From Hydrogenophilus sp. (GTDB lineage: Bacteria > Pseudomonadota > Gammaproteobacteria > Burkholderiales > Thiobacillaceae): a stretch of DNA of 64,000 bases. Below are positions 14,552 to 18,539 of this stretch, in pieces (within the stretch, counting starts at the first letter, position 1; the number at the start of each line of letters is the position of its first letter). The translations under genes and the position numbers were made by a program. The stretch covers positions 24,452-88,451 of the forward strand of contig DYFK01000014.1 of NCBI GenBank assembly GCA_020725265.1, written 5' to 3'. The notes under the pieces are model-generated. The model made no database searches. It was not told where the DNA came from and saw only the letters and a list, made by a program, of their open reading frames with translations.

Positions 14552-15346
14552 ATGTCCGGACCCGTAGCCTTCCTCACCCGCCGCGGCGCCGCCGCGCTCG
14601 CCGCCTGGCGCGTCTGGCGGGATACCGCGCGCTTCGCCGGCCGCGCGGTCGCCGCGTCGCTGTCGCCGGAGCTGTACAACAGCGCCACCCGGACGGTGGT
14701 CGCCAAGCAGATCTATTTCACCGCCTGGCAAATCCTGCCGGGATTCACGTTGTTCGCGGCATTGCTGTCCTTCGTGCTGATCCAGATCGTCGTCTCCACC
14801 GCGGCCAACTACGGTTTGTCGGAATACGCGCTGGAAGTGTCGATGCGCCTGCTGGTCCTGGAATTGCTGCCGCTGATCACTGCGCTGTTCGTTGCCCTGC
14901 GTTCCAGTTCGGCGATCAACACCGAGGTGGCGCTGATGCGCATCCACAATGAGATCGACGCGCTGGAGGCGGCCGGCGTCGACACCATGCGCCTGGAGTT
15001 CGTGCCGCGCGTCATTGGTGGCGTCATCTCGGTACTGGCATTGACGGCGGTATCCGGCGCGGTGGCCCTGATGCTGGCCTATCTGGCGGTGTACGGCCCT
15101 CAATGGTGGAGCTTCCCGGATTTCACCCGGGTGATGGCCAAGGTGTTCGAGGGACCGATCATGCTCGGCCTGTTGGCGAAGACCCTGTTTTTCGGGCTGG
15201 CGGTGACCGCCATTCCGGTGGTCGAGGGCCTGGCGACACCCAGGAAGCTGTTCATGGCGCCGATTTCCGTGCTGCGCGGCATGGTCCGGCTGTTTTTCGC
15301 GCTGATGCTGATCGAGGTGGCGTCATTAGCCCTGAAATACACCTGA
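14552..15346 (+). CDS. MlaE-family ABC transporter permease
   Basis: MlaE/YrbE pattern: GLSEYALEVSMRLLVLELLPLITALFVALRSSSAINTEVALMRIHNEIDALEAAGVDTMRLEFVPRVIGGVIS. Confidence 0.9.
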   Translation: MSGPVAFLTRRGAAALAAWRVWRDTARFAGRAVAASLSPELYNSATRTVVAKQIYFTAWQILPGFTLFAALLSFVLIQIVVSTAANYGLSEYALEVSMRLLVLELLPLITALFVALRSSSAINTEVALMRIHNEIDALEAAGVDTMRLEFVPRVIGGVISVLALTAVSGAVALMLAYLAVYGPQWWSFPDFTRVMAKVFEGPIMLGLLAKTLFFGLAVTAIPVVEGLATPRKLFMAPISVLRGMVRLFFALMLIEVASLALKYT

Positions 15347-15795
15347 AATGGCTGGCCGACGCCGCCGAACGGCGCGCGTTGCTGGCATCCCGGCCGGAAG
15401 CCATGCTGGTTTCCGCGGAACTGCCGTTGCGCGCGAATCTGTCCGTGCTGGAGAACATCGCCCTGATTCCGCAATATCGCCAGAATCAGCGCTTCGATCC
15501 GGCCGCCGATCTGGCCTGGACCATGCTGCATCACGCCGGTTATGGCGACATTGCCTTCAAGCGCGACCCGGACCTCACCCACGAGGAACGCTTCGCCGCG
15601 AAACTGCTGCGCGCCGCGGCCGCCGACCCGGCCTTGCTGGTGATCGACCGTCCCGGCATGCTGCTGCCGGACACGTTTGCCCCACCCTTCGTCGCGGCGC
15701 TGCTGGAAAGGACCGCCGACCATCTGAACGCATGCTGGATCGTGGAGTACGTATGGAACAAACCCCTGTATCCGCGCCCGGACCCAAGCCGGTAA
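15325..15795 (+). CDS. Degenerate MlaF-like ABC ATPase fragment lacking the Walker A half
   Basis: MLVSAELPLRANLSVLENIALIPQYRQ resembles the MlaF Q-loop region; LTHEERFAAKLLRAAAADPALLVIDRP replaces LSGGM...LLLFDEP. No GxxGxGK[ST] in frame. No ATG in frame at the 5' end, so the start is uncertain (ATT or another non-AUG codon). Confidence 0.65.
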   Translation: MSPEIHLKWLADAAERRALLASRPEAMLVSAELPLRANLSVLENIALIPQYRQNQRFDPAADLAWTMLHHAGYGDIAFKRDPDLTHEERFAAKLLRAAAADPALLVIDRPGMLLPDTFAPPFVAALLERTADHLNACWIVEYVWNKPLYPRPDPSR

Positions 15796-16802
15796 GCGCG
15801 CCGGTGCCGCCCCGCCCGACCGGCATGGCGGCGATCCGCAACCTGGAATTCAAGGTCGGCCTGCTGCTAGCGCTGACGCTGTTCCTGATCGCCGCGTTCG
15901 CGATCTACACCCTGCACGCGCGCGGCGCCTTCCAGCGCAGCCAGACCCTGGTGCTGACCGCGCCGGACGCGGAGGGTGTCGGCGTCGGCATGAGCATGAC
16001 CTTTTCCGGCTTCCCGATCGGCCAGGTCCGGCGCATCGACCTGACCGACCAGGGCGAGGCCCGGATCGAGATCGCGGTGCCGGAAGCGGATGCCAGATGG
16101 TTGCGCGAAACCAGCGTGTTCACACTTGAAAAGCCCCTGGTCGGCGGCGCCCGCGTCAAGGCCTACAGCGCCAATCTGGATGATCCGCCGCTGCCGCCGG
16201 ACGCGGTCCGGCCCTTGCACACCGGCGACGTCAGCCAGGAAATCCCGATCCTGGTCGAGCGCGTCAAGAATATCCTCGACAACGTCGCCGCGATGACCGA
16301 CGGCGATTCCTCGATCAACCGCACCCTCGCTCATGTCGAAACGGTCGGCCGGCGCATGACCGGCGAATACGGCGTGCTCGAAGGCGTCCTCGGCGGCCCC
16401 CGACAGGCGCGAGAGGTGGTCTCCGCGCTGGAGCGAGCCAACGCCCTGCTCGGCAATCTGAACGGTGTTTCCCTCCGGGTCGACCAGCTGCTGGCCAAGA
16501 CCGACGACCGCGTGTTCGGCGCGGCGGGAACCATGGACCAGATCCAGCAGGCCATCGCCCAGGTCAACGGCCTGCTCGGCGACACCCGCGCCAGTCTGAA
16601 ACAGGCCGATGCCATCCTGGCGAATGCCGAAAAGGCCAGCGCCGATGTCGCCCGCATCACCGGCGACGTACGCGGCGCCACCGCCGACATGGCCAGCCTG
16701 CGCGCGGAGATCGACAACAGCGTGCGCAAGATCAATCACCTGATCAACGAGATCAACAAGAAATGGCCGTTCGCCCGCGACGTGGAGATCAAGACGCCAT
16801 GA
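15753..16802 (+). CDS. MCE (MlaD-like) domain protein
   Basis: TM followed by MCE domain: NLEFKVGLLLALTLFLIAAFAIYTL...GVGVGMSMTFSGFPIGQVRRIDLTDQGEARIEIAV; long coiled-coil C-terminus. Confidence 0.9.
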   Translation: MEQTPVSAPGPKPVSAPVPPRPTGMAAIRNLEFKVGLLLALTLFLIAAFAIYTLHARGAFQRSQTLVLTAPDAEGVGVGMSMTFSGFPIGQVRRIDLTDQGEARIEIAVPEADARWLRETSVFTLEKPLVGGARVKAYSANLDDPPLPPDAVRPLHTGDVSQEIPILVERVKNILDNVAAMTDGDSSINRTLAHVETVGRRMTGEYGVLEGVLGGPRQAREVVSALERANALLGNLNGVSLRVDQLLAKTDDRVFGAAGTMDQIQQAIAQVNGLLGDTRASLKQADAILANAEKASADVARITGDVRGATADMASLRAEIDNSVRKINHLINEINKKWPFARDVEIKTP

Positions 16803-17467
16803 AACTCGCCGCCAGCCTGTTGCTTGCCGCCGGCCTGCTCGCCGGATGCGGTGGCAAGCCACCACCGCCCGACTGGAAACTCAACGCGGTCGGTCTGATC
16901 GAGGACAGCCAGCGGCGCTGGCTGGAAGGCGACAGCGCCGGCGCCGAGCGCGCGCTCGCGCTGGCGCGCTCGGAAATCGCCCGCACCGGCCGCGTCGACC
17001 TGCTTGCGCGCGCGGAGCTGGCGGCCTGCGCGGCGCGTGTCGCCGGTCTCGATTTCGAACCCTGCCACGGCTACCGAAAACTGGCGGCCGACGCCGACGC
17101 GGGTGATGTCGTTTACGCGCGTTTCATCGGCGGCGCCTGGACGGGCGCGGACGCTGGCGCGCTGCCCGCGCATTACGCCGACCTGGTTCGCGCCGGCGAC
17201 GATGCCGCCGCCAATCGCGCCGCGCGCGCGATCAAGGAGCCGCTGCCGCGCCTGATCGCCATCGCCCTGCTGTTCCAGAATACGCGCGCCGAACCCGCCA
17301 GTCTGGCGAGCGCGCTCGACACCGCCTCCGAACGCGGCTGGCGCAGACCTCTGCTGGCCTGGCTCAAGGTCGAGCTGGCGCGCGCGCGCGCCGCCGGCGA
17401 TGAAGCCGCCGCCGGCCAGCTCCAACGCCGGATCGATCTCGCGCTGGAAGAACCACCGAAACGCTGA
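16799..17467 (+). CDS. Hypothetical lipoprotein encoded with the MCE cluster
   Basis: Lipobox LLAGCGG; ATG overlaps the stop of the MCE gene. Confidence 0.7.
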   Translation: MKLAASLLLAAGLLAGCGGKPPPPDWKLNAVGLIEDSQRRWLEGDSAGAERALALARSEIARTGRVDLLARAELAACAARVAGLDFEPCHGYRKLAADADAGDVVYARFIGGAWTGADAGALPAHYADLVRAGDDAAANRAARAIKEPLPRLIAIALLFQNTRAEPASLASALDTASERGWRRPLLAWLKVELARARAAGDEAAAGQLQRRIDLALEEPPKR

Positions 17468-17551: not shown

Positions 17552-18106
17552 ATGGACTGGCTCTACCAACCCTGGCCCTGGTATGTCGCGGGCCCGCTGA
17601 TCGGGCTCATGGTTCCGCTGATGCTGTTCATCGGCAACCGCTCCTTCGGCATTTCCAACAACCTGCGTCATCTCTGCGCGATCACGCAACCGCCTACGGT
17701 CGACGTCGATTTCTTTCGTTACAACTGGAAGGAACACACCTGGAGCCTGGTGTTCGTGATCGGCACCGCGCTCGGTGGCTTCCTGGCCGGGGTTGTCTTC
17801 GCCAATCCGGAGCCGGTCCGTATCAGTCAGGCCACCCAGGACATGCTGCTGACCTGGGGCTTCACGCAACCGGGAATGTCGCTGGTTCCTGAAGAACTGT
17901 TCCACGCCAGCGTGCGCAATTTCACGTTCCTGTTCGCCGCCGGCGTGCTGGTCGGCTTCGGCACCCGCTATGCCGGCGGCTGCACCTCCGGACATGCCAT
18001 CACCGGCCTGTCGACCCTGCAACTACCCTCGCTGCACGCGGTACTCGGCATCTTCGGAGGCGGTCTGTTCGCCTCCTGGTTCCTGGTACCCTGGATGCTG
18101 ATCTGA
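17552..18106 (+). CDS. YeeE/YedE family membrane protein (sulfur transport-like), first half
   Basis: [24 protein letters not shown] signature; multiple TM segments. Confidence 0.88.
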
Positions 18107-18119
18107 GGCGGGCCTGAGC

Positions 18120-18539
18120 ATGTCACGCTATTTCCCCTATCTCCTGGTCGGCGTGCTGTTCGGCTTCGTGCTGATCAAATCGGAAGCCGCATCCTGGTAC
18201 CGCATCCAGGAAATGTTCCATTTCCAAAGCTTCCACATGTTTGGCATCCTGTTTTCCGCGATCGCCACGGCCTTCGTCGCGATCCAGCTGATCAAGCGAC
18301 TGGATCGCCGCCGGGCGTTGGATGGCCAGGCCATCGAGATTCCGGAAAAGCCGCCCGGACGTACCAGCTACCTGTTCGGCGGTCTCATTTTCGGGCTCGG
18401 CTGGGGACTGATCGGCCTGTGTCCCGGGCCGGTGTTCGCGTTGGCCGGGACCGGTTCGCTGGGCGCACTGGTAGTGCTGGCCGGCGCCCTGCACGGCACT
18501 TGGTTGTACGGCGCCCTCAAGCAGTATTTACCCCATTAA
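18120..18539 (+). CDS. YeeE/YedE (DUF6691-like) family membrane protein, second half
   Basis: SYLFGGLIFGLGWGLIGLCPGPVFALAGTGS signature; follows the first half by 13 nt. Confidence 0.88.
   Translation: MSRYFPYLLVGVLFGFVLIKSEAASWYRIQEMFHFQSFHMFGILFSAIATAFVAIQLIKRLDRRRALDGQAIEIPEKPPGRTSYLFGGLIFGLGWGLIGLCPGPVFALAGTGSLGALVVLAGALHGTWLYGALKQYLPH

Follow-up and report, generated by a model that had tools for sequence, protein, structure and literature searches.

A conserved P-loop-less relative of ABC ATPases with a predicted AUU start, a probable non-catalytic subunit of an MlaE-MCE transporter in Burkholderiales

In a 64-kb window of Hydrogenophilus sp. (the whole stretch of contig DYFK01000014.1 analyzed here), we found that the short open reading frame at 15325-15795 is a conserved gene, and neither a gene fragment nor an assembly error. 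It lies between the genes for an MlaE-family permease, which we call MlaE2, and an MCE-domain protein (Table 1). Computation established a conserved coding gene, the absence or replacement of its ATPase motifs, an ATT at the start, an association with MlaE2 and a conservation of permease loops that tracks the presence of the gene. Taken together, these results suggest that the short protein is probably a dedicated, AUU-started, non-catalytic subunit that caps the MlaE dimer of an MlaE-MCE-lipoprotein transporter, one that would need no ATP hydrolysis by the products of its own operon. We found no prior description of this gene in the open-licence literature and family databases.

Table 1. Features of the MlaE2 cluster, in window coordinates
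Feature	Coordinates	Strand	Remarks
MlaE-family permease (MlaE2)	14552..15346	+	PF02405, E=9.4e-39
MlaE2 codons 118-153, cytosolic coupling loop	14903..15010	+	corresponds to the NBD-docking element TM2-TM3 of E. coli MlaE (PMC7790496)
MlaE2 codons 225-248, second loop	15224..15295	+	cytosolic placement taken from MlaE topology
Shine-Dalgarno GAGGTG (predicted)	15314..15319	+	within mlaE codons Glu-Val, 5 nt before ATT
ATT (AUU) start codon (predicted)	15325..15327	+	overlaps mlaE 3' end
Short gene, P-loop-less pseudo-NBD, 156 aa	15325..15795	+	conserved
MCE-domain protein, long C-terminal region (helical by family resemblance)	15753..16802	+	PF02470, E=3e-7; TIGR00996, E=1.3e-11
Helical lipoprotein, lipobox LAGC	16799..17467	+	without Pfam or NCBIfam family

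The cluster consists of MlaE2, the short gene, the MCE gene and the lipoprotein gene only, and within it we found no functional ATPase, STAS protein MlaB or MlaC of the MlaFEDCB pathway. A preliminary description made from the sequence had judged that the permease and MCE genes look intact, and their Pfam matches agree. The short gene shares 22 nt with the end of mlaE and 43 nt with the MCE ORF, the latter as first described, and its frame is open for 156 codons, or 280 from stop to stop, since it continues within mlaE. A scan of the cluster against Rfam gave no match, and promoter and terminator scans returned nothing exceeding shuffles. Relatives of the lipoprotein are present in about 60 loci and are kept whether or not the system has the short gene. 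An AlphaFold2 model built on an alignment with 23 relatives is all helices (pLDDT 91), and a comparison with the PDB gave no significant match (best E 0.16). It does not resemble the PqiC-type lipoprotein found in Mpc. Directly downstream of the cluster, at 17552-18539, are two small membrane proteins that by eye appear to be a putative split YeeE/YedE-type transporter; the same putative pair comes after mlaE in another genome (G004, L161).

Profile comparisons indicate that the homology of the short protein to the part of ABC ATPases (NBDs) following the P-loop is real. Against PDB sequences, the family profile matched a 244-aa ATPase at residues 73-172 (E = 4e-8); its matches to ArtP, LolD and LptB, over residues ~70-200, had E 4e-8 to 1e-5, and 6 of 35 members matched PF00005 at E<=0.1 (best 1.5e-4). 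AlphaFold2 run on the alignment returned a confident partial NBD (pLDDT 93.1, pTM 0.88) in which the first strands and the P-loop helix are missing, and the Foldseek matches of this predicted fold are ABC NBDs, including MlaF (6xgy and 6xbd), at TMq 0.55-0.75. The gene begins after the P-loop helix of the NBD. It had been said to start near the Q-loop; this needs correcting, as it starts about 25 residues before it, at the conserved ATT. The P-loop (G-x4-GK[S/T]), LSGG and DEP occur in none of the 35 aligned members. In the frame 15325-15795 itself, the lack of a P-loop and the presence of LTHEER and VIDRP where the signature and Walker B are expected are as first described, and across the family the signature LSGGQ, Walker B DE, Q-loop and H-loop are replaced by LxxEERF, (D/E)RP, VS-xx-PLRANL and DYxWN. 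The substitutes invariant among the 35 include PLRANL, RDP, R109-P110, LP, I-x-x-Y-x-W and LY. The groove of an NBD near the Q-loop receives the coupling helix of the permease, and the best conserved segment of the short protein, PLRANLxVLEN, aligns with the Q-loop and this groove (placement by alignment). The name MlaF-like, given to the ORF at first, holds for its position only. The best match among the ABC ATPases of its own genome is LolD-like (30.8 bits, versus 8.9 bits for MlaF), and in a tree of ABC ATPases, a test limited by the long branch of the short proteins, the MlaF proteins form one group with the short proteins outside. Placement of the family beside MlaF was dropped, as the tree showed no affinity between them.

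Relatives were gathered by permease searches, which yielded syntenic loci within the genus, the family and the order, and most of these loci have a homologous short ORF downstream of mlaE. Most genomes compared are metagenome-assembled; one locus (L066) belongs to Parasulfuritortus cantonensis LSR1, a named strain and not a metagenome-assembled genome. The first set held 40 distinct members at 44-66% identity, and more distant members from other families were found at 40-48%, showing that the short form, which the preliminary description had proposed looking for in relatives, is conserved. In all, about 60 relatives from several families of Burkholderiales have the same MlaE and MCE genes on either side of them or, where loci were rearranged, close by. 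An alignment of 35 members has 25 invariant columns and a mean column identity of 53%. The selection suspected at the outset is supported by this conservation across families and by dN/dS values of 0.13-0.43 for the short gene (12 pairs), compared with 0.03-0.33 for mlaE and 0.02-0.38 for mce. Close relatives with a full-length ATPase here had been named as the sign of a recent deletion or an assembly error. None of the loci examined had one in the interval from mlaE to MCE, and both of those origins were rejected, the short form being common to several families. That the gene is a decaying pseudogene or an artefact of assembly is thus most improbable: although all ATPase motifs are missing, the gene is lost in part of the family and one match (L146) contains an internal TAG, the dN/dS values, the invariant columns, the well-predicted fold and a start signal that has been kept all speak against it. 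The TAG of L146 (genome G026) is the only one in that match and lies near its end, giving a slightly shorter protein that ends ...NRPLYD. In another locus (L150; G011 contig 2:317500-328500), mlaE is about 6 kb from the block of short gene, MCE and lipoprotein; between them lie a CusA-like RND efflux gene and the genes around it, as if an island had split the cluster.

Comparison of these loci places the start of the short gene at the conserved ATT at 15325, with its own Shine-Dalgarno. The preliminary description reported no in-frame ATG; the first one is at 15403, well inside the conserved protein sequence, and the missing 5' ATG is explained by the use of a conserved AUU start. In the first set, 31 of the 40 members are without a 5' ATG and share the ATT inside mlaE, while the other 9 have an ATG. 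In the wider set, ATT is found at this position in 46 of the 60 loci with the gene, and the remaining 14 have an in-frame ATG (two of the 46, the L031/L053 type, keep the ATT with the gene in another phase and with its own ATG). GAGGT is present in 45 of these 46 ATT loci. Among loci without the gene next to mlaE, ATT occurs in 4 of 46; two of the four are from genomes of the same genus, and one of the four is G017, where the gene has moved away.

Within mlaE, the ATT spans two codons of the type xxA/TTR, usually TCA TTA and often the sole such codons in the gene, against a background of 1.8-3.0% of Leu codons elsewhere in these genes. A mere codon effect of mlaE was ruled out by this background, by the near-complete loss of ATT from loci starting at an ATG, and by the survival of ATT through codon changes, with mlaE encoding Leu-Leu (CTA TTA) in L226 and L227 and Ala-Leu (GCA TTA) in L034. 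The CTG at the mlaE stop (CTGA) was also rejected as a start, since several loci have ATA, GTA or CTA there with the ATT kept, and the spacing of the Shine-Dalgarno suits ATT. In G017 and G011 the gene, together with MCE and lipoprotein genes, is detached from mlaE, yet the ATT is kept with a new AGGAG 8 nt upstream; in G008, where the gene is also detached, an ATG stands in place of the ATT. These findings bear on whether a -1 ribosomal frameshift from mlaE, instead of AUU initiation, might produce an MlaE-NBD fusion. The 22-nt overlap is in the -1 phase and the frame is open further upstream, as such an event would require, but there is no X-XXY-YYZ slippery heptamer in the overlap, the invariant unit is the Shine-Dalgarno with ATT, this unit is kept in G017 and G011 with the gene away from mlaE, and ATG is used in 14 loci. 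We therefore give frameshifting next to no weight. At the end of mlaE in L078 and L079, which have no short gene, the ATT and an upstream GAGGTC are kept in frame with the MCE ORF, and possibly the former AUU start now serves MCE.

The AUU start of infC is known to be sensitive to IF3. Like infC and pcnB of E. coli and cvfC1 of Staphylococcus aureus, the short gene appears to combine a conserved AUU with a strong Shine-Dalgarno (for cvfC1, see PMC13009471, which cites Binns and Masters 2002 for pcnB as an AUU-initiated gene). The short gene differs from these three in that its AUU lies inside an upstream gene, that it would encode a transporter subunit and that lineages swap AUU and AUG. In S. 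aureus, AUU and AUA starts reduce protein yield (PMC13009471). A rare AUU start and the overlap with mlaE suggest low, tuned expression, such as might be expected of a translated regulator or assembly factor that protects MlaE at insertion or limits MlaE2 activity and is not a permanent subunit. The gene order, the near-constant linkage and the co-conservation of both MlaE loops suit a structural subunit at least equally, and we regard a regulator as distinctly unlikely.

In E. coli, the contact between MlaE and MlaF is made by the coupling helix between TM2 and TM3 (PMC7790496). For MlaE2 pairs with backbone identity 0.55-0.65, the corresponding loop and the second loop (118-153 and 225-248) taken together have an identity of 0.67 with the short gene and 0.34 without it, and the second loop alone 0.71 versus 0.33; the contrast is present in every identity bin, these pairwise comparisons being phylogenetically non-independent. 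With the short gene, both loops are more strongly kept than the remainder of the permease; without it they have decayed. Canonical MlaE loops (0.79 identity at backbone 0.65-0.8) resemble those of MlaE2 with the gene. Seven residues (E134, E149, P237, V240, G243, M244 and F248) are identical in all 58 MlaE2 proteins with the gene, compared with 0.32-0.76 in MlaE2 without it and 0-0.09 in canonical MlaE. Deletions of at least 2 residues in the coupling loop were found in 7 of 34 gene-less MlaE2 proteins and in 0 of 58 with the gene. The simplest reading of these patterns is that the short protein occupies MlaF's place on the permease and that MlaE2 without it binds no NBD. Loop conservation of this kind argues for a contact, and not for the identity of a sole partner; physical docking and the role as a cap are what we infer from it.

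MlaE2 was detected in 65 of 399 sampled genomes of the order (E<=1e-25) and the short gene in 32 of the 399, all 32 of which also have MlaE2, leaving 33 genomes with MlaE2 and no short gene. In a class-wide search of 369 genomes the short gene was found in its own genome only, so the family seems confined to this order. In the gene-less loci that were read, MCE comes after MlaE2 with no ATPase in the interval. A complete mlaF elsewhere in the genome, another check proposed at the outset, was found in 23 of 23 genomes tested, each having 1-4 MlaF homologues. In addition to the cluster described here, the Hydrogenophilus genome has two further MlaE clusters, each with a full ATPase: a canonical mlaF-mlaE-mlaD cluster on contig 20 and, on contig 29 (L119; G000 contig 29:19000-28000), a permease with a long N-terminal extension, a Walker A ATPase, MCE and lipoprotein, an arrangement that resembles Brucella Mpc. 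An orphan full-length MlaF paralogue with no adjoining permease is found on contig 8 (G000 contig 8:72297-73082; L192:3199-4119). It is 66% identical to canonical MlaF, has an intact Walker A and occurs in several relatives too, in one of which (G024) it lies near sucCD.

The MlaE2 transporter might thus borrow a full-length ATPase in trans, either canonical MlaF or the orphan paralogue, with the short protein as an adaptor or as half-dead partner in a heterodimer. The MlaF homologues in all 23 genomes, the orphan without a permease beside it and the precedent of the shared mycobacterial MceG (PMC9882608) are in keeping with this. By match count, however, many genomes with the short gene lack the orphan (G011, G026, G059, G065 and the genus-g46 genomes), and a role for it as a universal partner is not supported. 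MlaE2 loops also hold invariant residues that canonical MlaE is without, and no NBD is expected on gene-less MlaE2 because the docking loops there are decayed or partly deleted. Of the two readings offered by the preliminary description, a borrowed ATPase and an ATP-independent or regulatory subunit, the second is better supported. The first is disfavoured, although MlaF is present elsewhere, because the loops of MlaE2 appear adapted to the short protein and are decayed where it is missing, and we consider it rather unlikely.

A non-catalytic cap thus remains our preferred explanation. An ABC ATPase (NBD) ancestor would have lost its P-loop half and all ATPase motifs, keeping the part that grips the permease. 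The short protein would be made from an AUU within the 3' end of mlaE, preceded by a dedicated Shine-Dalgarno, and would bind the MlaE dimer at its cytosolic loops. There it would serve as a structural cap, keeping the permease together or determining its conformation. Lipid could then move between the permease and the MCE needle, in either direction, with no ATP hydrolysed by the products of the permease's own operon, by analogy with PqiA-PqiB and LetA-LetB, which work without an ATPase; independence of the whole transporter from ATP is what this arrangement suggests. The cap would subsequently have been lost in one large branch, where the docking loops decayed. In a tree of MlaE2 rooted on canonical MlaE, short-gene lineages are basal and gene-less ones form one nested group; one member of that group, L137, has both the gene and intact loops. 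It is likely from this tree that loss of the P-loop preceded the diversification of MlaE2 and that the remnant disappeared later in part of the family, an order that is only tentative because the root is a very long outgroup branch. Loss of the short gene in about half of the sampled genomes most likely came later. We lean, by a modest degree, towards a stepwise conversion of a type VIII ABC lipid permease to an ATP-independent MCE transporter, in which an NBD became a docked, AUU-started cap and the loss of the cap and decay of the loops left an NBD-free MlaE.

ATP hydrolysis by MlaF is essential for E. coli Mla (PMC7367683), yet PqiA and LetA serve MCE tunnels without an ATPase. With the same MlaE-MCE pair occurring with a dead P-loop-less NBD or with none, the MlaE2 family may allow a direct look at what the ATPase contributes and lets one ask what drives ATP-free MCE transport. 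It also offers a natural way to tell which MlaE surfaces serve solely to hold an NBD, and the short gene suggests a stepwise route from an ATP-driven lipid transporter to one not using ATP. A conserved AUU start exchanged with AUG between lineages would be a rare example of a non-canonical start open to comparative study, and AUU-started genes of this sort are likely missed or mis-started by gene finders.

Several known systems share parts of this plan. The mycobacterial Mce-YrbE-MceG systems likewise have a permease and MCE operon without a full ATPase of its own. MceG, unlike the short protein, is a full ATPase shared in trans, and no P-loop-less NBD-derived gene is described in that account of mycobacterial Mce (PMC9882608). 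Brucella Mpc (MpcEFDA) has a comparable set of genes for permease, ATPase, MCE needle and lipoprotein, making a trans-envelope bridge; in contrast to the cluster here, its ATPase is complete and MlaF-like, its permease carries a STAS domain and its lipoprotein is PqiC-like (PMC12436622). PqiABC and LetAB (YebST) also pair a membrane protein with an MCE bridge and lack an ATPase, but PqiA and LetA, unlike MlaE2, are not MlaE-type ABC permeases and have no NBD-derived protein. In E. coli, MlaF mutated in Walker A or B is non-functional (PMC7367683), so a P-loop-less subunit would be unable to do MlaF's job. Compared with MlaFEDB, the cluster described here has no ATPase motifs and no STAS domain or MlaB, and it has a helical lipoprotein in place of MlaC and MlaA. 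What it shares with MlaFEDB and the MlaEFD core, a type VIII ABC transporter, is the clustering of an MlaE permease, an MCE gene and an NBD-derived gene, and a coupling loop that is kept wherever the NBD-derived gene occurs.
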